DNA of 64,000 nt from Bradyrhizobium sp. SZCCT0153 (lineage in GTDB: Bacteria > Pseudomonadota > Alphaproteobacteria > Rhizobiales > Xanthobacteraceae): NCBI RefSeq assembly GCF_018129995.1, contig NZ_JAFCKS010000009.1, positions 1 to 64,000 on the forward strand. The letters are read 5' to 3'. Shown piece after piece: positions 19,443 through 33,667 of this stretch. The position numbers were made by a program, and so were the translations under genes. The notes below the pieces were generated by a model. That model was not told where the DNA came from, did not search any database, and saw nothing but the letters and a program-made list of their open reading frames with translations. Position 1 is the stretch's first letter; every line of letters begins with the position of its first letter.

Positions 19443-19658
19443 GGTTGAGTCCTTGCCCATTGCCAAAAACGTTCGCAGATAACACGAATCGACGCAATGC
19501 GCGTTTCGACGAACGGATGTCTGAAAATGGCCATCGCGGCTCGCCCGTTGCAAGCCCATTTGTGGTCAGATACGCCATCCGAACGATATCATGGGTTCCT
19601 GCGCAGGAACAGGATTCTCCGCCCTCGGGCTTCGCGCCAAGGCCCCAAAGAGCAGGCA

Positions 19659-20309
19659 ATGACCTCCCATCAGCCCCCGCCCGAAAAGATGATGTTTCAG
19701 CTCACGCTGAGGCGTCGCGGCATCAGCGACCAGGCGGTGCTGCGGACCATGGAGGAGGTGCCGCGCGAGCAGTTCGTCGACGAAGCCGATCGCGAGGGCG
19801 CCTATCGCGATAGTGCGCTGCCGATCGCGTGCGGGCAGACCATCAGCCAGCCCTTCGTCGTCGCCTACATGACCGAGCAGCTGCAGCTCCGGAAGCAGCA
19901 CCGCGTGCTCGAGATCGGGGCTGGCTCCGGCTATCAGGCCGCGGTGCTGTCGCGGCTTGCCGGCCAGGTGCTGACCGTCGAGCGCTATCGCAAGCTCGCG
20001 GATGCCGCTCGCGCCCGGCTTGAAAAGCTCAACTGTCACAATGTCGAGGTGATGCTGGGCGACGGTCTCAACCTGCCTCCCAATATCGGCCCGTTCGACC
20101 GCATCATCGTCACGGCCGCGATGGAGCGGCTTCCGGAGAACCTGGTCGAGCGGCTGGAGGTGGGCGGTATCCTGATCGCGCCCGTTGGTCCGCATCAGGG
20201 CGTGCAGACGCTGATCCGCCTCGTCCGGACCGAAGCCGGGATAGAGCGCAAGGAACTCGTCGAGGTCCGCTTTGTGCCGGCGCTGCCCGGAGTGGCGCGG
20301 GAGCTGTAG
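19659..20309 (+). CDS. pcm: Protein-L-isoaspartate O-methyltransferase
   Basis: Pcm methylates L-isoaspartyl residues in aged proteins with S-adenosylmethionine, starting their repair. The 216-residue product has the substrate segment [18 protein letters not shown] (59-75), SAM motif I as [14 protein letters not shown] (84-97) and the later [17 protein letters not shown]. The start at 19659 gives the usual family length; longer in-frame starts would add an unlikely Arg-rich leader. It lies between surE and the LysM/LytM lipoprotein gene, as in the enterobacterial surE-pcm-nlpD order. Confidence 0.95.
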
Positions 20310-20418: not shown

Positions 20419-21792
20419 ATGTCCGTCGTCGCCGAGTTGCTTTACTCGCGCCGCGCACCGCAGGTCGCGGTGCTGGCGCTGATCTCCTTCAGCTTCGCAG
20501 GGTGCAGCGCCGACATGTCGTCGCGGCTGTCCCAGTCGAACTTCTCCAATCCCTTCGCGTCCGAGCAGACCGGTTCGGTGCAGCAGGCACCGCCGCCGCA
20601 GCGTGAGCTGCCGCAATATTCGCGGCCGCAGACGCAGTCCGGCTATTACCAGTCGCAGCCCTTGCCGCCGCCGGCGGTATCCGCGCCGCAATCCTATCCG
20701 GTTGCGGCAGCTGGCGTGTCCGGAGGCGGCCGCGGTATCGGCTCCTACGCACCCCCGGCACAGCCGCATCTGGAGACCACGGCCACCGTGCCGCCGCGCT
20801 CGGTCGCGGCCGCCCAGCCAGCCGGCGGGACCAAGATCATCGTCGGCACCAGCGATACGCTCGACGTGCTGGCCAGGCGCTATCACGTCACGCCGCAGGC
20901 GATCCTTGCCGCTAACGGCTACAAGGGTCCGCGCGCACTGTCGCCCGGGCAGCAGATCATCATCCCGCATCCGGCCGCGACCGCGCCGGCGATGGCTCCC
21001 GTCGCCGCGGCGCCGGCGCCCGCTGCGAGGCCGGTTGCGGCCGTCGCTGCCGCGCCGGGCACCTACTTCGTCAATCATGGCGATACGCTCGCCAGCATCG
21101 CCCGCAAGAACCATATCTCTACCGCCGAACTCGCCCGTGCCAACGGCCTTGCGCCGTCGACCAAGCTCAAGCTCGGCACCAAGCTGACCGTGCCGGGTGC
21201 CAAGACCGCAGCTCTCACTGCGCCGGTTGCTGCGTCTCCCGTCATGGCCGCCCCCGTCGCGGGGACGCTGCAGCCCGTTGCTGCTGCGCCCGCTACCAAG
21301 ATGGCCGCTGCTGCCGCGCCGCTGCAGAGCGCGCGCCTGGCCCAGGCCACGGCCAATGTCGAGGAAAAGACCGCCGAGGCTCCGGCGAAAGCGGCGGAGA
21401 CCACCAGCGCGCTGCCGACCTTCCGTTGGCCGGTGCGCGGCAAGGTGGTCACGAGCTACGGCGCCAAGACCAATGGCAAATCCAATGACGGCATCAATCT
21501 CGCGGTGCCCGAGGGTACGCCGATCAAGGCGGCAGAAGACGGCGTCGTCGCCTATTCCGGCAACGAGCTGAAGGGTTACGGCAATCTGGTCCTGGTTCGG
21601 CACTCCAACGGCTACGTCACCGCATATGCCCATGCGAGTGAGCTGTTGGTGAAGCGCGGCGATACCATCAAGCGCGGTCAGGTCATTGCCAAGTCGGGTC
21701 AATCCGGGGAGGTGGCGTCGCCGCAGCTCCACTTCGAGATCCGCAAAGGATCGAGCCCGGTTGACCCGCTTCAATTCCTGAACGGCGCGTGA
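20419..21792 (+). CDS. NlpD-type lipoprotein: two LysM and a degenerate LytM (M23) domain
   Basis: A 457-residue lipoprotein with a signal ending in SFAGC (lipid-modified C29), a Pro/Gln-rich linker, two LysM domains (about 137-180 and 214-259), a long Ala/Pro linker and a C-terminal M23 domain (about 340-455). In the M23 domain the first zinc motif HxGxD is replaced by NDGIN, while AYAH and LHFE persist. This matches E. coli NlpD, an activator of cell-wall amidases rather than a hydrolase, so an activator role is inferred. The position after surE and pcm supports it. DipM-like function is the main alternative. Confidence 0.88.
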   Translation: MSVVAELLYSRRAPQVAVLALISFSFAGCSADMSSRLSQSNFSNPFASEQTGSVQQAPPPQRELPQYSRPQTQSGYYQSQPLPPPAVSAPQSYPVAAAGVSGGGRGIGSYAPPAQPHLETTATVPPRSVAAAQPAGGTKIIVGTSDTLDVLARRYHVTPQAILAANGYKGPRALSPGQQIIIPHPAATAPAMAPVAAAPAPAARPVAAVAAAPGTYFVNHGDTLASIARKNHISTAELARANGLAPSTKLKLGTKLTVPGAKTAALTAPVAASPVMAAPVAGTLQPVAAAPATKMAAAAAPLQSARLAQATANVEEKTAEAPAKAAETTSALPTFRWPVRGKVVTSYGAKTNGKSNDGINLAVPEGTPIKAAEDGVVAYSGNELKGYGNLVLVRHSNGYVTAYAHASELLVKRGDTIKRGQVIAKSGQSGEVASPQLHFEIRKGSSPVDPLQFLNGA

Positions 21793-21918: not shown

Positions 21919-22923
21919 CTACGTCGCTGCCAGCTTCACGCCCAGCCGCCCGGCGAGTTCCTGCACGAACTGCCAGGCGACGCGGCCCGAGCGGGAGCCG
22001 CGCGTAGTCGACCATTCCAGCGCCTCGCGCTCCAGCGCCTCGTCGTCGACCTTGATGCCGAAATGGCTGCAATAGCCGCGGACCATCGCGAGGTATTCGT
22101 CCTGGCTACAGCGGTGGAAGCCGAGCCACAGTCCGAAACGGTCCGACAGCGAGACCTTTTCCTCGACGGCTTCGCCGGGATTGATCGCGGTCGAGCGCTC
22201 GTTCTCAATCATCTCGCGCGCGAGCAGGTGGCGGCGGTTGGAGGTGGCGTAGAGGATGACGTTCTCGGGCCGGCCCTCGATGCCGCCTTCGAGCACGGCC
22301 TTGAGCGACTTGTATGACGCATCATTGCCGTCGAAGGATAGATCGTCGCAGAACACGATGAAGCGGAAGAACGAGGCGCGGAGCTGCTCCATGAGGGCGG
22401 GCAGGCTCTCGATGTCCTCGCGGTGGATCTCGATCAGCTTCAGCCTGTCGGCCGGTCTGCGCTCCGCGTTGATGCTGGCGTGTGCGGCCTTCACCAGCGA
22501 CGACTTGCCCATGCCGCGCGCGCCCCAGAGCAGGGCGTTGTTGGCAGGCAGCCCGCCTGCGAAACGCTCGGTGTTCTCCATCAGGATGTCGCGCATCCGG
22601 TCGACGCCCTTGAGCAGGAACAGCTCGACGCGGCTGACCCGCGGCACCGCCGCGAGGCGGCCGTCCGGGTGCCAGACGAAAGCATCCGCCTGCTTGAACG
22701 ACTCACGTTCGACGGCGGGCTTGCCCTGGGCGGAGAGGTGCGCTGCGATGATCTCCAGCGCGCGGACGATACGCTCCTGGGAGAGGCCGGAAGCAGGCTT
22801 GGAAACTGCCTTTAAAACGGCCTTGGGGGCTGCCTTGGGGCGTTTTGCCGCGACGCGGGCAGGCTTCGTGGCAGGGGTGCGGGGGCCTTTGCTGGCCGGG
22901 CTTTTGCTTGGTTTTTTGGGCAT
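21919..22923 (-). CDS. DUF815-family AAA-type ATPase
   Basis: A 334-residue protein with a basic, Ala/Pro/Lys-rich N-terminus (residues 1-45) and a P-loop ATPase core: Walker A GARGMGKSS (K140), Walker B FIVFCDDLSF (D193-D194), then SLKAVLEGGIEGRPENVILY and the sensor-like YATSNRRHLL. These are hallmarks of DUF815, a widespread family of unknown biochemical role often annotated as ATP-binding protein. The ATG at 22923 is preceded by AGGAAC. It is divergent from yajC, so the 181-base gap should hold both promoters. Confidence 0.9.
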   Translation of the reverse strand: MPKKPSKSPASKGPRTPATKPARVAAKRPKAAPKAVLKAVSKPASGLSQERIVRALEIIAAHLSAQGKPAVERESFKQADAFVWHPDGRLAAVPRVSRVELFLLKGVDRMRDILMENTERFAGGLPANNALLWGARGMGKSSLVKAAHASINAERRPADRLKLIEIHREDIESLPALMEQLRASFFRFIVFCDDLSFDGNDASYKSLKAVLEGGIEGRPENVILYATSNRRHLLAREMIENERSTAINPGEAVEEKVSLSDRFGLWLGFHRCSQDEYLAMVRGYCSHFGIKVDDEALEREALEWSTTRGSRSGRVAWQFVQELAGRLGVKLAAT

Positions 22924-23104
22924 GTCCGAAGTTCCTGAGAATGCAGCCTTATCGGGCCTGACGGCGCGCCGCAAGGTGGCCAAAAGGGCGGTCTGGCAGC
23001 GTTGCAATTGGGGCAATGGCCGCTATAGTCCGCGCGAATTTGACCGAGCCGGTCGCCTTTGAGGGCCTGACCGGCTTTCCCCCGTTTCCACGAGGATCGT
23101 CCGA

Positions 23105-23485
23105 ATGCTGATTACCCCTGCGTATGCCCAGGCCGCGGGCGCCGGCGACACCAACAGCATGTTGATGTCGCTGCTGCCGTTCGCCCTGATCTTCGTGATC
23201 ATGTACTTCCTGATTCTGCGCCCGCAGCAGAAGAAGGTGAAGGACCATGCCGATCTCGTGAAGAACATCCGCCGCGGCGACACCGTGGTGACCTCGGGCG
23301 GCCTCGTCGGCAAGGTCACCAAGGTCGTCGATGACGACCAGATCGAGTTCGAGATTTCCGACGGCGTGCGCGTGCGGCAGATGCGCCAGATGATCTCCGG
23401 CGTTCGTGCCAAGGGCGAGCCGGCCAAAGAATCCGCCAAGGATAGCGCGAAGGAAAGCGCCAAGGACGACAGCGCGGCGAAGTGA
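23105..23485 (+). CDS. yajC: Preprotein translocase accessory subunit YajC
   Basis: YajC associates with SecDF in the inner membrane. The 126-residue protein has one membrane helix (LLPFALIFVIMYFLIL), followed by RPQQKKVKDHADLVKNI and the small beta domain GDTVVTSGGLVGKVTKV, which are the family hallmarks. The C-terminal 25 residues are a repetitive Lys/Glu/Asp/Ala/Ser tail (ESAKDSAKESAKDD). It leads the yajC-secD-secF cluster, with a gap of about 47 bases to secD. Confidence 0.95.
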   Translation: MLITPAYAQAAGAGDTNSMLMSLLPFALIFVIMYFLILRPQQKKVKDHADLVKNIRRGDTVVTSGGLVGKVTKVVDDDQIEFEISDGVRVRQMRQMISGVRAKGEPAKESAKDSAKESAKDDSAAK

Positions 23486-23532: not shown

Positions 23533-25137
23533 ATGTTGTATTTCACGCGGTGGAAAGCGCTGGGGATTATCCTGACGGCGCTGATCGTGTGCCTCTGCGC
23601 GGTCCCGAATTTCTTTCCCGAAGCGCAGGTCAAGACCTGGCCCGGCTGGGCGCAGCGCCGGCTCGTGCTCGGCCTCGATCTCCAGGGCGGCTCTTATCTG
23701 CTGCTGGAGGTCGACGGCGCTTATGTGAAGAAGGAGAGGCTCGACCAGGTCCGCGACGACGTTCGCCGGACGCTGCGCGATGCGAAGATCGGCTTCACCG
23801 GCGGCGTCACCGTGCGCAATGACGCGGCCGAGGTTCGCATCACCAAGGAATCCGACGTGCAGCCCGCGCTCGCCAAGCTGCGAGAGCTGTCCCAGCCGCT
23901 GGGCGGGCTGATGGGATCCAGCGGTCAGCGCGACCTTGACGTGACGGACGCCACCGGCGGCGTGATCCGCCTGAGCATCCCGCAGGCCGCGATGCTCGAC
24001 CGCATGCGCAAGACCATCGAGCAGTCGATCCAGATCGTCGAACGCCGCGTCAACGAACTCGGCACCGTCGAGCCTGTGATCCAGCGTCAGGGCAACGACC
24101 GCATCCTGGTGCAGGTGCCCGGCCTTCAGGACCCGACCCGCCTGAAGGAACTGCTGGGCAAGACCGCGAAGATGGAATTCCGCATGGTCGACACGTCCGT
24201 GCCGCCGGATCAGGCGCAGCAGGGGCGGTTGCCGCCGGAATCCGAGCTCCTTATGAGCGCCTCGCCGCCGCCCACACCCTATGTGGTCAAGAAGCAGGTG
24301 CTGGTTGCCGGCGGCGATCTGACCGATGCCCAGGCGAGCTTCGACCAGCGCACGAGTGAACCGGTCGTCAGCTTCAAGTTCAACACCTCGGGTGCGCGCA
24401 AGTTCTCGCAGGCCACGCAAGAGAACGTGGGGCTGCCCTTCGCGATCGTGCTCGACAACAAGGTGATCTCGGCGCCCGTCATCCGCGAGCCCATCACCGG
24501 CGGCCAGGGCCAGATCTCGGGCAGTTTCACCGTGCAATCGGCCAACGATCTCGCGATCCTCTTGCGCGCCGGCGCGTTGCCGGCGCCTCTAACGGTCGTC
24601 GAGGAGCGCACCGTCGGTCCGGGCCTCGGCCAGGACTCGATCGAGAAGGGCGAGCTTGCTGCCTATGTCGGCTCGATCCTGGTCATCATCTTCATGCTGC
24701 TGACCTATCGCCTGTTCGGCGTGTTCGCCAACATCGCGGTGGCGATCAACGTCGCGATGATCTTCGGCCTGCTGTCGCTGCTCAACGCCACGCTGACGCT
24801 GCCCGGCATCGCCGGCATCGTCCTCACCGTCGGCATCGCGGTCGATTCCAACGTGCTGATCTACGAGCGCATCCGCGAGGAATTGCGCGGTGGCCGCAAC
24901 GCGATCTCGGCGATCGACGCCGGCTTCAAGCGGGCGCTCGCGACCATCCTCGATTCCAACATCACCACCTTCATTGCCGCCGCGGTGCTGTTCTACATCG
25001 GGACCGGTCCGGTGCGCGGCTTCGCCGTGACGCTCGGCATCGGCATCATCACAACGGTGTTCACCGCCTTCACCCTGACGCGGCTGATCGTCGCCGGGTG
25101 GGTGCGGTGGAAGCGGCCGCAGAGCGTGCCGATCTAG
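23533..25137 (+). CDS. secD: Protein translocase subunit SecD
   Basis: SecD uses the proton-motive force to help SecYEG complete protein export. The 534-residue protein has an N-terminal membrane helix, the first periplasmic P1 region starting with GLDLQGGSYLLLEVD, and a C-terminal five-helix RND-type membrane block that includes GIVLTVGIAVDSNVLIYERI and REELRGGRNAISAIDAGF. Start and length agree with the family. It is followed ten bases later by secF. Confidence 0.97.
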   Translation: MLYFTRWKALGIILTALIVCLCAVPNFFPEAQVKTWPGWAQRRLVLGLDLQGGSYLLLEVDGAYVKKERLDQVRDDVRRTLRDAKIGFTGGVTVRNDAAEVRITKESDVQPALAKLRELSQPLGGLMGSSGQRDLDVTDATGGVIRLSIPQAAMLDRMRKTIEQSIQIVERRVNELGTVEPVIQRQGNDRILVQVPGLQDPTRLKELLGKTAKMEFRMVDTSVPPDQAQQGRLPPESELLMSASPPPTPYVVKKQVLVAGGDLTDAQASFDQRTSEPVVSFKFNTSGARKFSQATQENVGLPFAIVLDNKVISAPVIREPITGGQGQISGSFTVQSANDLAILLRAGALPAPLTVVEERTVGPGLGQDSIEKGELAAYVGSILVIIFMLLTYRLFGVFANIAVAINVAMIFGLLSLLNATLTLPGIAGIVLTVGIAVDSNVLIYERIREELRGGRNAISAIDAGFKRALATILDSNITTFIAAAVLFYIGTGPVRGFAVTLGIGIITTVFTAFTLTRLIVAGWVRWKRPQSVPI

Positions 25138-25147
25138 GAGCCTGATC

Positions 25148-26167
25148 GTGACTCACACCGTTCTCATCGGGCTCGGCATCCTGATTGCCGTCCTCACCGT
25201 GGTTGCCGCGCTTGGGCTGCTGCCGTCGCTGCGCATCGTTCCGGACGATACGCATTTCGACTTCACGCGTTTCCGCCGCATCAGCTTCCCGATCTCGGCG
25301 GCGCTGTCGATCGTCGCCATCACGCTGTTCTTCACCCACGGCCTGAATTTCGGCATCGACTTCCGCGGCGGCACGCTGCTCGAGGTGCAGGCCAAGTCCG
25401 GCACTGCCGACATCGCCGCGATGCGCACGACGCTGGACGGCTTGCGTCTCGGCGAAGTCCAGCTCCAGCAATTCGGCGGTCCCGCCGACGTTCTGATCCG
25501 GGTCGCGGAGCAGCCGGGCGGCGACGCCGCCCAGCAGGAGGCGGTGCAGAAGGTCCGCACCGCGCTGGGTGATTCCGTCGACTATCGCCGCGTCGAGGTG
25601 GTCGGCCCGCGAGTCTCCGGCGAGCTCTTGGCCTACGGCATGCTCGGCCTGATGCTCGCGATCGTCTCGATCCTGATCTATCTCTGGTTCCGGTTCGAAT
25701 GGCAGTTCGCGCTGGGAGCCATGATCGCCAACGTGCACGACATCGTGCTGACGATCGGCTTCATGTCGATCAGTCAGGTCGATTTCGACCTGACCAGCAT
25801 CGCGGCGCTCCTGACGATTCTCGGATATTCGCTCAACGACACCGTCGTCATCTATGACCGCATCCGTGAAATGCTGCGGCGCTACAAGAAGATGCCGATG
25901 CCGCAGCTGCTCAACGAGTCCATCAACTCGACGCTGTCGCGTTCGATCATCACCCACTTCACGGTGACGCTGGCGCTGCTGGCGCTGCTCCTGTTCGGCG
26001 GTCATGCCATCCACAGCTTCACCGCGGTGATGATGTTCGGCGTGGTGCTGGTCGGCACCTACACCTCGATTTTCATCGCGGCGCCGATCCTGATCTATCT
26101 CGGCGTCGGCGAGCATCGCGAGGATGCGCCGGATACGGCTACGCCGGCGAAGAAAAACAAGGCATGA
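25148..26167 (+). CDS. secF: Protein translocase subunit SecF
   Basis: SecF pairs with SecD. The 339-residue protein has a first membrane helix, LNFGIDFRGGTLLEVQ as the start of its short periplasmic domain, and the conserved membrane block GYSLNDTVVIYDRIREMLRR followed by the INSTLSRSIITHF segment. Hydrophobic residues upstream of the usual first helix (TVLIGLGILIAVLTVVAALG) suggest an extra N-terminal membrane segment compared with E. coli SecF. The Mth938-domain gene follows about 50 bases downstream. Confidence 0.96.
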   Translation: MTHTVLIGLGILIAVLTVVAALGLLPSLRIVPDDTHFDFTRFRRISFPISAALSIVAITLFFTHGLNFGIDFRGGTLLEVQAKSGTADIAAMRTTLDGLRLGEVQLQQFGGPADVLIRVAEQPGGDAAQQEAVQKVRTALGDSVDYRRVEVVGPRVSGELLAYGMLGLMLAIVSILIYLWFRFEWQFALGAMIANVHDIVLTIGFMSISQVDFDLTSIAALLTILGYSLNDTVVIYDRIREMLRRYKKMPMPQLLNESINSTLSRSIITHFTVTLALLALLLFGGHAIHSFTAVMMFGVVLVGTYTSIFIAAPILIYLGVGEHREDAPDTATPAKKNKA

Positions 26168-26218: not shown

Positions 26219-26611
26219 ATGAAGCTGATGGCCGGCGATCCCAACGCACCGCATTTCCCTCGTTCGGCACCGATCGAAGCCTATGGCAAGGGCGGCTTCG
26301 CCTTTGCCGGCATGTCGCATCGAGGCTCGCTGCTCTGCCTGCCTGACGCGATCTGGGCCTGGGACGTGACGGACCCGGCGAGTATCGATCGCTATTCGCT
26401 GGATCGGGTCTTCACGGCCGCGAGCAGCATCGACACGCTCCTGATCGGCACCGGAACCGGCGTGTGGCTGCCGCCGCCGGACCTGCGGCAGGCGCTGAAG
26501 GCGGCGAGGGTGGTGCTGGACACGATGCAGACCGGCCCTGCCGTGCGCACCTACAACATCATGATCGGGGAACGGCGCCGCGTCGCGGCCGCGCTGATCG
26601 CGGTGCCATGA
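26219..26611 (+). CDS. Mth938-domain protein, NDUFAF3 homologue
   Basis: A 130-residue soluble protein of the Mth938 (DUF498) fold: GGFAFAGMSHRGSLLCLP, then LLIGTGTGVWLPPPDLRQAL and a final segment typical of the family. The human member NDUFAF3 is a mitochondrial complex I assembly factor; the bacterial role is unproven. It follows secF and overlaps the next gene by four bases (ATGA), and that next gene is a homologue of another complex I factor. The conserved linkage of this family to secDF in Alphaproteobacteria is established knowledge. Confidence 0.88.
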   Translation: MKLMAGDPNAPHFPRSAPIEAYGKGGFAFAGMSHRGSLLCLPDAIWAWDVTDPASIDRYSLDRVFTAASSIDTLLIGTGTGVWLPPPDLRQALKAARVVLDTMQTGPAVRTYNIMIGERRRVAAALIAVP

Positions 26612-27471
26612 GCAGCACTGCGCCGGCGCCCGACACCGTGTCCTTCTGCGCCGACCTCGTGCGCAGCCACGACTTCTCCCGCTATGCTGCGACCCTGTTC
26701 GCGCCCGCCGCGGAGCGCCGTGCGCTGCTGGCGCTTTATGCCTTCAATGTCGAGATCGTCCGCGTCCGCGACCAAGTGAGCCAGCCTTTGCCTGGCGAAA
26801 TCCGCCTGCAATGGTGGACCGACATGCTCTCGGGTCATGTCCATGGCAGCGCCGAGGGCAATCCGGTGGCGGCGGAACTGCTGCGTGCGATCCGCGATTT
26901 CGACCTGCCGGTCGAGCCGCTGTCGCTGCTCGCCGACGAGCATCAATTCGATCTCTACAACGATCCGATGCCGACAATGGCTGCGCTCGAAGGCTATCTG
27001 GCCGCGACTTGCTCGGCATTGTTCGAGCTTGCGGCCCGGATCATGGTGTCACCTTCGGAAGCTGGCGAGCATATGGCCCGTCATGCAGGCTTGGCCCAGG
27101 GCATCGTGCAGGTGATTGCCAATCTGCCGCGTGATGCGGCGCACCGGCAATTGTTCCTGCCGCAGCAGCTGCTGGCGAGTCACGATTGCAACATGGAGGA
27201 TGTGTTCGCCGGCCGGGAGACGCCGAACTTGCGCGCCGTGCTGGACCAACTCGCGGGCGAGGCACAGCAGCATCTGGCAACGGCCTCGTCATTGCTGGCG
27301 GAGGTGCCGGCGTCGGCACGGCCGGCGTTTCTGCCGCTGAGCCAGGTGCGGGCCGACCTCAAGCGCCTGTCGCAGCCAGGGCGCAATCCGTTCACGCCGC
27401 AGTCCTCGTCGCGGTTGCGCACACTGTGGACGTTGTGGCGGGCTTCACGATCCCGGGAATTTACCAAATAG
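26608..27471 (+). CDS. Squalene/phytoene synthase-like protein, NDUFAF6 homologue
   Basis: A 287-residue member of the all-helical trans-isoprenyl synthase fold. It resembles the divergent NDUFAF6 branch: RRALLALYAFNVEIVRVRDQ, GEIRLQWWTDML and LADEHQFDLYNDPMPT. The Asp-rich DxxxD motifs needed for diphosphate chemistry are weak or absent in the places expected for real squalene synthases (for example EHQFDLYND), so a non-enzymatic or altered role is likely. It is translationally coupled to the Mth938 gene, which supports a respiratory complex I assembly role by analogy. No carotenoid or hopanoid genes adjoin. Confidence 0.85.
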   Translation: MSSTAPAPDTVSFCADLVRSHDFSRYAATLFAPAAERRALLALYAFNVEIVRVRDQVSQPLPGEIRLQWWTDMLSGHVHGSAEGNPVAAELLRAIRDFDLPVEPLSLLADEHQFDLYNDPMPTMAALEGYLAATCSALFELAARIMVSPSEAGEHMARHAGLAQGIVQVIANLPRDAAHRQLFLPQQLLASHDCNMEDVFAGRETPNLRAVLDQLAGEAQQHLATASSLLAEVPASARPAFLPLSQVRADLKRLSQPGRNPFTPQSSSRLRTLWTLWRASRSREFTK

Positions 27472-32239: not shown

Positions 32240-33667
32240 TCACGCGGCTGCGGCAATGCGCAAATGATCGGCGATCCAGCGATCGAGATCGGCGAGCGCC
32301 AGCGCGCTCATCGCCTGCTTCTTGGCCACCGTCTTCTCGTTGCCGCGCAGGCGCGTGCCGTCGGGCTTCTTCGTCGGTGCGCTGGCGAGCGGCGGGAACA
32401 GGCCGAAATTGATGTTCATCGGCTGGAACGACCGCGTGCCGGGCTCGATGGTTTCGATATGGCCGCCGGTGATGTGGCCGAGCAGCGATCCGAGCGCCGT
32501 GGTGCCCGGCGGGCTCGCAAGCGTCTCGCCGCGTGCATCTGCGGCCGCATAGAGGCCGGCGATCAGGCCGACACTGGCAGACTCCACATAGCCCTCGCAG
32601 CCCGTCATCTGGCCGGCAAAGCGCAGCCGCGGCTGTGCACGCAGGCGCAACTGGCCGTCGAGCAGCTTTGGCGAGTTGAGGAAGGTGTTGCGATGCAGGC
32701 CGCCGAGGCGGGCGAACTCCGCCTTCTCAAGCCCCGGAATGGTGCGGAAGATACGCTGCTGCTCGCCGTATTTCAGCTTCGTCTGGAAGCCGACGATGTT
32801 GTAGAGCGTGCCGAGCTTGTTGTCCTGGCGCAGTTGAACGATCGCGTAGGCTTTCGTCGCAGGATCGTGTGGATTGGTGAGGCCAACGGGCTTCATCGGC
32901 CCGTGGCGCAAGGTCTCGGGGCCGCGCTCCGCCATCACCTCGATCGGCAGGCAGCCGTCGAAATAGGGCGTGTTGGTCTCCCATTCCTTGAACTCGGTCT
33001 TCTCGCCGGCGATCAGCGCGGCGACGAAGCCGTCATACTGCTCCCTGGTCATCGGGCAGTTGATGTAGTCGGCACCGGTGCCGCCGGGACCGACCTTGTC
33101 GTAGCGCGACTGGAACCAGGCCACCGACATGTCGATGGATTCGCGGTGGACGATCGGTGCGATCGCGTCGAAGAAGGCGAGCGCATTCTCGTCGGTCAGC
33201 TCGCGGATGGCATCAGCCAGCGGCGCGGAGGTGAGGGGGCCGGTGGCAACGATGACGTTGCTCCAGTCGGCCGGCGGCAGGCCTGCAATCTCGCCGCGCG
33301 CAATCTCGATCAGGGGGTGATCGTTCAGCGCCTTGGTGACGGCCGCTGAGAAGCCGTCACGGTCGACCGCCAGCGCGCCGCCGGCGGGCACCTGGTTGGT
33401 GTCTGCCGCGCGCATGATCAACGAGCCGAGGCGGCGCATTTCGGCATGGAGCAGGCCGACGGCGTTGTTGGCGGCATCGTCCGAGCGGAACGAATTGGAG
33501 CAGACGAGTTCGGCAAGTCCGTCGGTGCGGTGCGCCTCGGTCGTGCGGGTCGGCCGCATCTCGTGCAGCACCACGCGCACGCCGGATTTGGCCACCTGCC
33601 AGGCGGCTTCTGAGCCGGCAAGGCCTGCGCCGATAACGTGCACGGTATTGGATTGGGGTCCTGTCAT
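32240..33667 (-). CDS. trmFO: Methylenetetrahydrofolate-tRNA-(uracil-5-)-methyltransferase TrmFO
   Basis: TrmFO makes 5-methyluridine at position 54 of tRNA with methylene-THF and FADH2, in place of the SAM-dependent TrmA. The 475-residue protein has the FAD motif [13 protein letters not shown] (11-23), the cysteine C56 in LVCSNSFRS and C204 in [11 protein letters not shown], matching the two functional cysteines of the family, and the ending ANLLG-type segment [14 protein letters not shown]. TrmFO is typical of Gram-positives, Alphaproteobacteria and Deltaproteobacteria. It precedes the kinase fusion gene. Confidence 0.95.

Follow-up and report, generated by a model that had tools for sequence, protein, structure and literature searches.

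Directly behind yajC, secD and secF in an alphaproteobacterial genome of 7.4 Mb, a gene for a Mth938-domain protein (hereafter, mth938) runs into a gene for a squalene-synthase-like protein (hereafter, naf6), and the question that this locus raises is whether the two proteins share a task. The original prediction, made for the window, that is, the whole stretch of 64,000 nucleotides analyzed here, was that they do, namely, in the biogenesis or insertion of complex I, for which human members of both families are assembly factors. The first gene resembles NDUFAF3 (C3orf60)/Mth938/DUF498 in its Pfam domain, PF04430, which NDUFAF3 contains, and in its linkage to secDF, which is already known for the Mth938 family in Alphaproteobacteria. 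“NDUFAF3-like” is nevertheless used here as a label: the only human chain among the PDB matches of the Mth938 protein is instead another Mth938 protein, C11orf67 (2ab1, 3.6e-06 by profile), and the PDB searches recovered no chain of NDUFAF6 or NDUFAF3.

The second protein is similar to the NDUFAF6 family in that it has the PF00494 fold, lacks the DxxxD motifs and stands apart from the squalene and phytoene synthases. Unlike NDUFAF6, it is bacterial, its putative complex I role comes from gene distribution, and its orthology rests on published work. According to PMC8007014, human NDUFAF6 acts on ND1, its orthologs lack DxxxD, NDUFAF6 (C8orf38) is “cluster 1” of the head-to-head group of trans-IPPS enzymes (Lemire 2017, as cited there), and prokaryotic members group with eukaryotic NDUFAF6. 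Both the prokaryotic orthologs and the motif loss are already known; the mitochondrial function of NDUFAF6-like proteins is called unknown in the same text. Among the matches listed from the open-licence literature, outside which most subscription journals fall, no paper addresses the linkage of mth938 to naf6 or the dependence of naf6 on the type of complex I.

The gene pair and its overlap

Both genes lie on the same strand as yajC, secD and secF, upstream, and are followed by a gene for threonine ammonia-lyase (Table 1). The predicted ATGA overlap of the two genes behind yajC-secD-secF is confirmed by the coordinates of the open reading frames together with the Pfam matches. A scan for promoters and terminators yielded, at no higher a level than shuffled sequence does, one weak promoter-like site before yajC; nothing resembling a terminator turned up on the + strand.

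Table 1. Features of the window, with the evidence for each
Feature	Coordinates	Strand	Evidence
pcm, member of the conserved neighborhood	19497..20309	+	PF01135, 188.9 bits
dipM-like LysM/M23 gene, member of the conserved neighborhood	20419..21792	+	best NCBIfam match DipM, below cut-off; relatives in the same place in many loci
DUF815 ATPase gene, member of the conserved neighborhood	21919..23016	-	PF05673, 350.7 bits; relatives in the same place in many loci
yajC	23105..23485	+	PF02699, 92.3 bits
secD	23533..25137	+	SecD_1st and SecDF_P1_head over cut-off
secF	25148..26167	+	SecD_SecF_C, 217.6 bits
mth938, Mth938-domain gene (NDUFAF3-like), 130 aa	26219..26611	+	PF04430, 104.9 bits (cut-off 33); solved relatives 2fvt, 2fi9
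ATGA, stop of mth938 and start of naf6	26608..26611	+	both ORF coordinates
naf6, NDUFAF6-like gene, squalene/phytoene-synthase fold (model) without Asp motifs, 287 aa	26608..27471	+	PF00494, 195 bits (cut-off 26); own clade; model pLDDT 92.9
Place of Asp motif I, LYAFNVEIVRVRD versus DDxxD	26734..26772	+	alignment with synthases
Place of Asp motif II, GIVQVIANLPRDAAHRQLFLP versus DxxED	27100..27162	+	alignment with synthases
Predicted C-terminal helix, residues 271-285	27418..27462	+	model; lower confidence, blocks of pLDDT 67-68
trmFO, conserved downstream neighbor, here ~4.8 kb away	32240..33667	-	NCBIfam TrmFO, 684.8 bits (cut-off 262)

Among the named loci most like the window, which were retrieved with one peptide pattern and, as the best 80 among 582 that were confirmed, favor window relatives, the two genes are adjacent in all 80. 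By title, these loci come mostly from Rhizobiales, from Bradyrhizobium to Rhizobium, Methylobacterium, Microvirga, Kaistia and Stappia, and the closest, within the same best 80 of 582, are those of Bradyrhizobium sp. AS23.2 and B. hipponense, at 89% protein identity, which marks the window genome as a Bradyrhizobium. The 4-base overlap occurs in 38 of the 79 loci measured, and in 38 of the 41 others, the start codon is at most 62 bases from the stop; in further loci of the window's own family, the pair is adjacent in 10 of 11, with the 4-base overlap in 4 of these 10. The ATGA overlap as such is ordinary, and it is the conserved adjacency that exceeds chance. As a spacing common in related loci, the overlap was set aside as strong evidence. 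Translational coupling is possible in the relatives of the window, without being a feature of the class.

A conserved neighborhood

For the class as a whole, we sampled 115 genomes, one per family; 62 of them contain PF04430, and 82 contain PF00494 genes of one kind or another. We surveyed up to 9 kb on each side of 62 PF04430 places, one genome contributing two and the window genome standing outside the set. A secF, secD or fused secDF gene ends at most 150 bp upstream of the PF04430 gene in 57 of the 62 loci (L096, L118, L126, L131 and L134 are the exceptions), and the predicted linkage to secDF accordingly holds across the class. Downstream, 43 loci have a linked NDUFAF6-like hit on the same strand; with the weak matches in G119 (38 bits) and G046 (22 bits) excluded, this leaves 41 of the 62 loci. 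Put differently, both genes are present in 54 class genomes besides that of the window and are linked in 41 of them, and 6 of the 13 unlinked genomes have less than 7.5 kb of contig past the PF04430 gene.

The pair is, then, conserved in Alphaproteobacteria, mainly as part of a larger neighborhood, and the refuting outcome named with the original prediction, a pair that lacks conservation, did not materialize. Direct adjacency occurs in 3 of the 41 linked class loci, and a PF06181 (Urate_ox_N) membrane protein or a Fe/Mn superoxide dismutase is encoded between the two genes in 36. At least one intervening gene is on the opposite strand in 34 of these 36 loci, a layout incompatible with a single simple transcript across the neighbors. 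That the PF06181 protein and the superoxide dismutase share a single slot, mostly on the opposite strand, is an observation in its own right. The full order, with gene labels verified on example loci, is pcm, dipM, DUF815 (reverse), yajC, secD, secF, mth938, PF06181 or superoxide dismutase (reverse), naf6, trmFO (reverse), uvrA (reverse), ssb and gyrA. This order from pcm to gyrA would be ancestral, and the window retains much of it, from pcm to the more distant trmFO (Table 1).

It is about an even bet that nothing beyond such inertia accounts for the pair, that is, that the two genes adjoin only through an old, slowly rearranged region and perform unrelated tasks. The genes dipM, DUF815, trmFO, uvrA, ssb and gyrA, which are unrelated in function, hold their places equally well, and trmFO, on the other strand, lies within 2 kb after the NDUFAF6-like gene in 28 of the 41 linked loci. 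Because trmFO is linked nearly as often, linkage by itself is weak evidence and, with trmFO as the control, was set aside as a strong argument. In one family, f28, considered below, mth938 is present in 2 and naf6 in all 16 of the stretches read, which were fetched by naf6; this, too, favors inertia. Against it stands the joint occurrence of the two genes: across the 115 genomes, 55 have both, 13 the NDUFAF6-like gene alone (out of 68 with this gene), 7 PF04430 alone (out of 62) and 40 neither, and among those of at least 2 Mb, the respective numbers are 55, 8, 3 and 5 (p 0.004, Fisher test, which ignores phylogeny). The rates of NDUFAF3 and C8orf38 in eukaryotes also co-vary, according to PMC3436739, which likewise speaks against mere inertia. 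With adjacency limited to the relatives of the window and 3 of 41 class loci, and with trmFO linked nearly as well, the argument from a coupled pair to a shared complex I role does not carry.

A synthase fold without the aspartate motifs

The NDUFAF6-like protein of the window was modeled with AlphaFold (pLDDT 92.9, 33 sequences); the model adopts the synthase fold, and the nearest structure is CrtM-like 8is6 (TM 0.82 and 0.85, 18% identity), with HpnC 4hd1 also close. At the place of motif I the protein reads FNVEIVRVRD, and at that of motif II, NLPRD. All five aspartates of the two motifs are kept in 43 of 43 sequences of the HpnC, HpnD and CrtB types. Of 44 NDUFAF6-like sequences, none has aspartate at position 1 or 2 of motif I, 7, the window protein included, have it at the last position of that motif, and 1 and 5 have it at the first and last positions of motif II, respectively. 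The fold thus appears, by the model, to be kept with the metal-binding motifs gone, and the weakness of the DxxxD motifs noted in the original prediction proves to be common to the clade. The loss of these aspartates suggests, as the original prediction has it, that the protein is not a terpene synthase, and it probably lacks synthase activity.

In a FastTree phylogeny of 90 sequences, built without support values and after ten matches shorter than 200 residues were left out, the PF00494 genes linked to mth938 on the same strand form one clade outside the HpnC, HpnD and CrtB types. Outside that clade fall the linked genes in L086 and L105 that keep DDxxD and the opposite-strand gene of L121. 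A profile made from the linked genes, A1, scores the NDUFAF6-like clade higher than PF00494 does. At L086:8109-8930 (G117) and L105:11124-11978 (G044), a second squalene-synthase-like gene, with DDxxD kept, sits beside the NDUFAF6-like gene near mth938. The NDUFAF6-like protein, accordingly, is like HpnC, HpnD and CrtB in fold and length, and unlike them in lacking the aspartate motifs, in scoring below the NCBIfam cut-offs and in belonging to a separate clade.

The NDUFAF6-like protein could still handle an isoprenoid (a quinone, a prenyl chain or a lipid) and supply or shield a ligand of the Q site, rather than act as a pure chaperone. The helical fold is kept, and other polar positions are conserved instead (D22, E49, R66, W70 and P185 are invariant in 33 NDUFAF6-like sequences), but the metal-binding aspartate positions are changed, and we consider such a function rather unlikely. 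The C-terminal helix of the model possibly contacts the membrane, where the protein may have a role.

Co-distribution with complex I across the class

The presence of NuoH, called from PF00146 at 1e-50 or better, was used to follow complex I, and 97 of the 115 class genomes have it (132 unknown letters were ignored in the NuoH tree). The set of 68 genomes with a NDUFAF6-like gene was sorted by hand among the matches listed, either because profile A1 outscores PF00494 at the same place or for the only such gene of a genome, or because a match begins at model position 1-4 at a place outside the PF00494 list; the match in G119 (38 bits) was again excluded. NuoH is present in 66 of these 68 genomes and in 60 of the 62 with PF04430, and on both counts the exceptions are G021 and G097, two incomplete genomes that carry both genes. 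Conversely, among the 97 genomes with NuoH, 37 lack PF04430 and 31 lack the NDUFAF6-like gene, 23 of the latter being smaller than 2 Mb. Within the NuoH genomes, too, the two genes tend to occur together (53 with both, 13 with the NDUFAF6-like gene and 7 with PF04430 alone, 24 with neither; phylogeny is ignored).

Apart from G021 and G097, 16 genomes lack NuoH, and every one of them is smaller than 2 Mb, which confounds the association with complex I in this sample; among genomes below that size, the NDUFAF6-like gene does not track NuoH significantly (5 of 28 versus 0 of 16, p 0.14, phylogeny ignored). Moreover, many small genomes, for example, G015 and G040, have an alpha-type complex I and neither gene, so neither is strictly required. 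Short, divergent nuo sets (nuoA-D and pieces of nuoH) occur in G012, G031 and G083 (L367, L368 and L370), where both assembly-factor genes are absent; no nuoE or nuoF was seen beside these sets, the G012 contig being short. The E. coli control has a NuoH match and no match to PF04430 or PF00494; Caulobacter vibrioides matches PF04430 and also PF00494, the latter possibly through a NDUFAF6-like gene. A search for relatives without complex I in the families of G014 (NuoH in 67 of 70) and G101 (4 of 5) gave no useful contrast.

Different complex I types within one family

A clearer contrast comes from family f28, which is probably Acetobacteraceae, judging by nuo operons that are lost or doubled, a pattern for which PMC4596401 gives the precedent. 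Among its 110 genomes that are at least 95% complete, 98 have NuoH, 87 with an alpha-type score (form A) and 11 with the other, E. coli-type form (form B) only. The NDUFAF6-like gene is present in 85 of the 87 genomes with alpha-type NuoH, in 0 of the 11 with E. coli-type NuoH only and in 3 of the 12 without NuoH. All seven genomes that by score have both forms of NuoH (G431, G446, G457, G465, G471, G491 and G496) keep the gene. The gene was called from a match starting at model position 1-3 or from follow-up reading, the matches in G410, G427, G465, G471 and G424 being partial and that in G504 carrying one internal stop. The two misses in spite of alpha-type NuoH are G448, with no match among those listed, and G459, with broken pieces; the three genomes with the gene and without NuoH at 1e-50 (G420, G450 and G463) are drafts of 160-550 contigs. 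The broken remains in G459, a genome that keeps an alpha-type complex I, lie at G459:C1:289821-290243.

The NuoH forms were assigned by score and span, and operons were read for 7 of the 87 form-A genomes (G423, G036, G434, G448, G459, G457 and G473; in G424, NuoH is split into two pieces). In the alpha-type operons read, nuoC and nuoD are separate. They are fused into nuoCD in each of the six operons that were read among the 11 form-B-only genomes, as they are in the second operon of G457, the one read among the seven two-form genomes, and the NuoH of this form groups with that of E. coli. Such E. coli-type operons with fused nuoCD, which replace the alpha-type operon or stand beside it, can be seen at L348-L353 and L360. 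The nuo set of G422 resembles that of E. coli much more closely than the remaining sets do, which suggests separate acquisitions.

How many independent events underlie these counts was read by eye from a HpnD tree that covers 60 of the 110 genomes (37 of 87 with form A, 11 of 11 with form B only and 12 of 12 without NuoH). The losses on it comprise a clade of 18 genomes (support 69), the pair G422 and G485, whose branch is long and doubtful in position, and two single losses; the sister group of the clade of 18, G423 and G486, keeps both. With the losses so clustered, the counts amount to one or two joint losses, not twenty.

A candidate factor for the alpha-type complex I

The reading that we favor, with a probability of roughly 0.62, is that naf6 is the counterpart of NDUFAF6 and aids the alpha-type complex I, that mth938 is tied to secDF, and that an old neighborhood accounts for their proximity. 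The naf6 product would be a protein with a squalene-synthase fold and without the aspartate motifs that helps to build the alphaproteobacterial (mitochondrial) complex I, probably acts at the membrane, at the step of NuoH (ND1), and is dispensable for the E. coli-type complex. A role specific to the alpha-type complex I can be proposed for it with moderate confidence from the distribution of the gene, and to that extent the link of naf6 to complex I in the original prediction is supported; NuoH is proposed as the site of action by analogy with the human protein, which acts on ND1 (PMC8007014). The Mth938-domain protein may aid the same process, possibly in cooperation with naf6, and is more easily lost. 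The two genes sit together, it seems, because the old neighborhood from pcm to gyrA has closed up in the relatives of the window.

If naf6 is specific for its client, it would be dropped when an E. coli-type complex I is swapped in and kept when both types are present. Tentatively, one might go further and see in NDUFAF6 a client-specific factor for the alpha-type complex I that was passed on to mitochondria, and in the secDF-mth938-naf6 locus an ancestral assembly module for the Sec-assisted insertion of NuoH. Should the gene follow the alpha-type complex I in bacteria, two assembly factors linked to human disease would date to before the mitochondrion, and the way it acts could be approached by straightforward genetics, most readily in an acetic acid bacterium that carries two nuo operons, in which loss of the gene would be expected to impair one enzyme and leave the other intact. 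Gluconacetobacter diazotrophicus has two such operons, according to PMC4596401.

For mth938, a part in complex I assembly is weakly indicated, and the joint role predicted for the pair would go beyond what the gene distribution shows. In f28, none of the 16 stretches read contains secD or secF, and in 13 of the 14 without mth938, this gene could sit elsewhere in the genome; G036, however, has an alpha-type complex I and a NDUFAF6-like gene, yet PF04430 is absent from the entire genome. Together, G036 and the f28 stretches suggest that mth938 is less tied to complex I than naf6. The same stretches bear on the notion that the pair is an accessory module of the Sec translocon for membrane proteins generally, with complex I as its most visible client. 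Such a module would fit the 57 of 62 loci in which secDF immediately precedes mth938, but naf6 stays in all 16 f28 stretches without secD or secF, and it tracks the type of complex I, which makes this notion quite improbable. That naf6 encodes a working squalene or phytoene synthase of hopanoid or carotenoid synthesis can be dismissed: it passes the PF00494 cut-off, but scores 135.9 against the NCBIfam cut-off of 278.6 for HpnD, 50.9 against 250.45 for HpnC and 49.6 against 500 for CrtB (five CrtB references have CrtB as their best NCBIfam match and also fall below its cut-off), the motifs are lost, and a separate adjacent PF00494 pair on contig C12 of the window genome passes the cut-offs for HpnD (344.1 bits) and HpnC (291.3 bits).

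A minor observation concerns the Mth938 family away from the translocon genes: at L126 (G026:C98), a second, divergent PF04430 gene lies apart from secDF.
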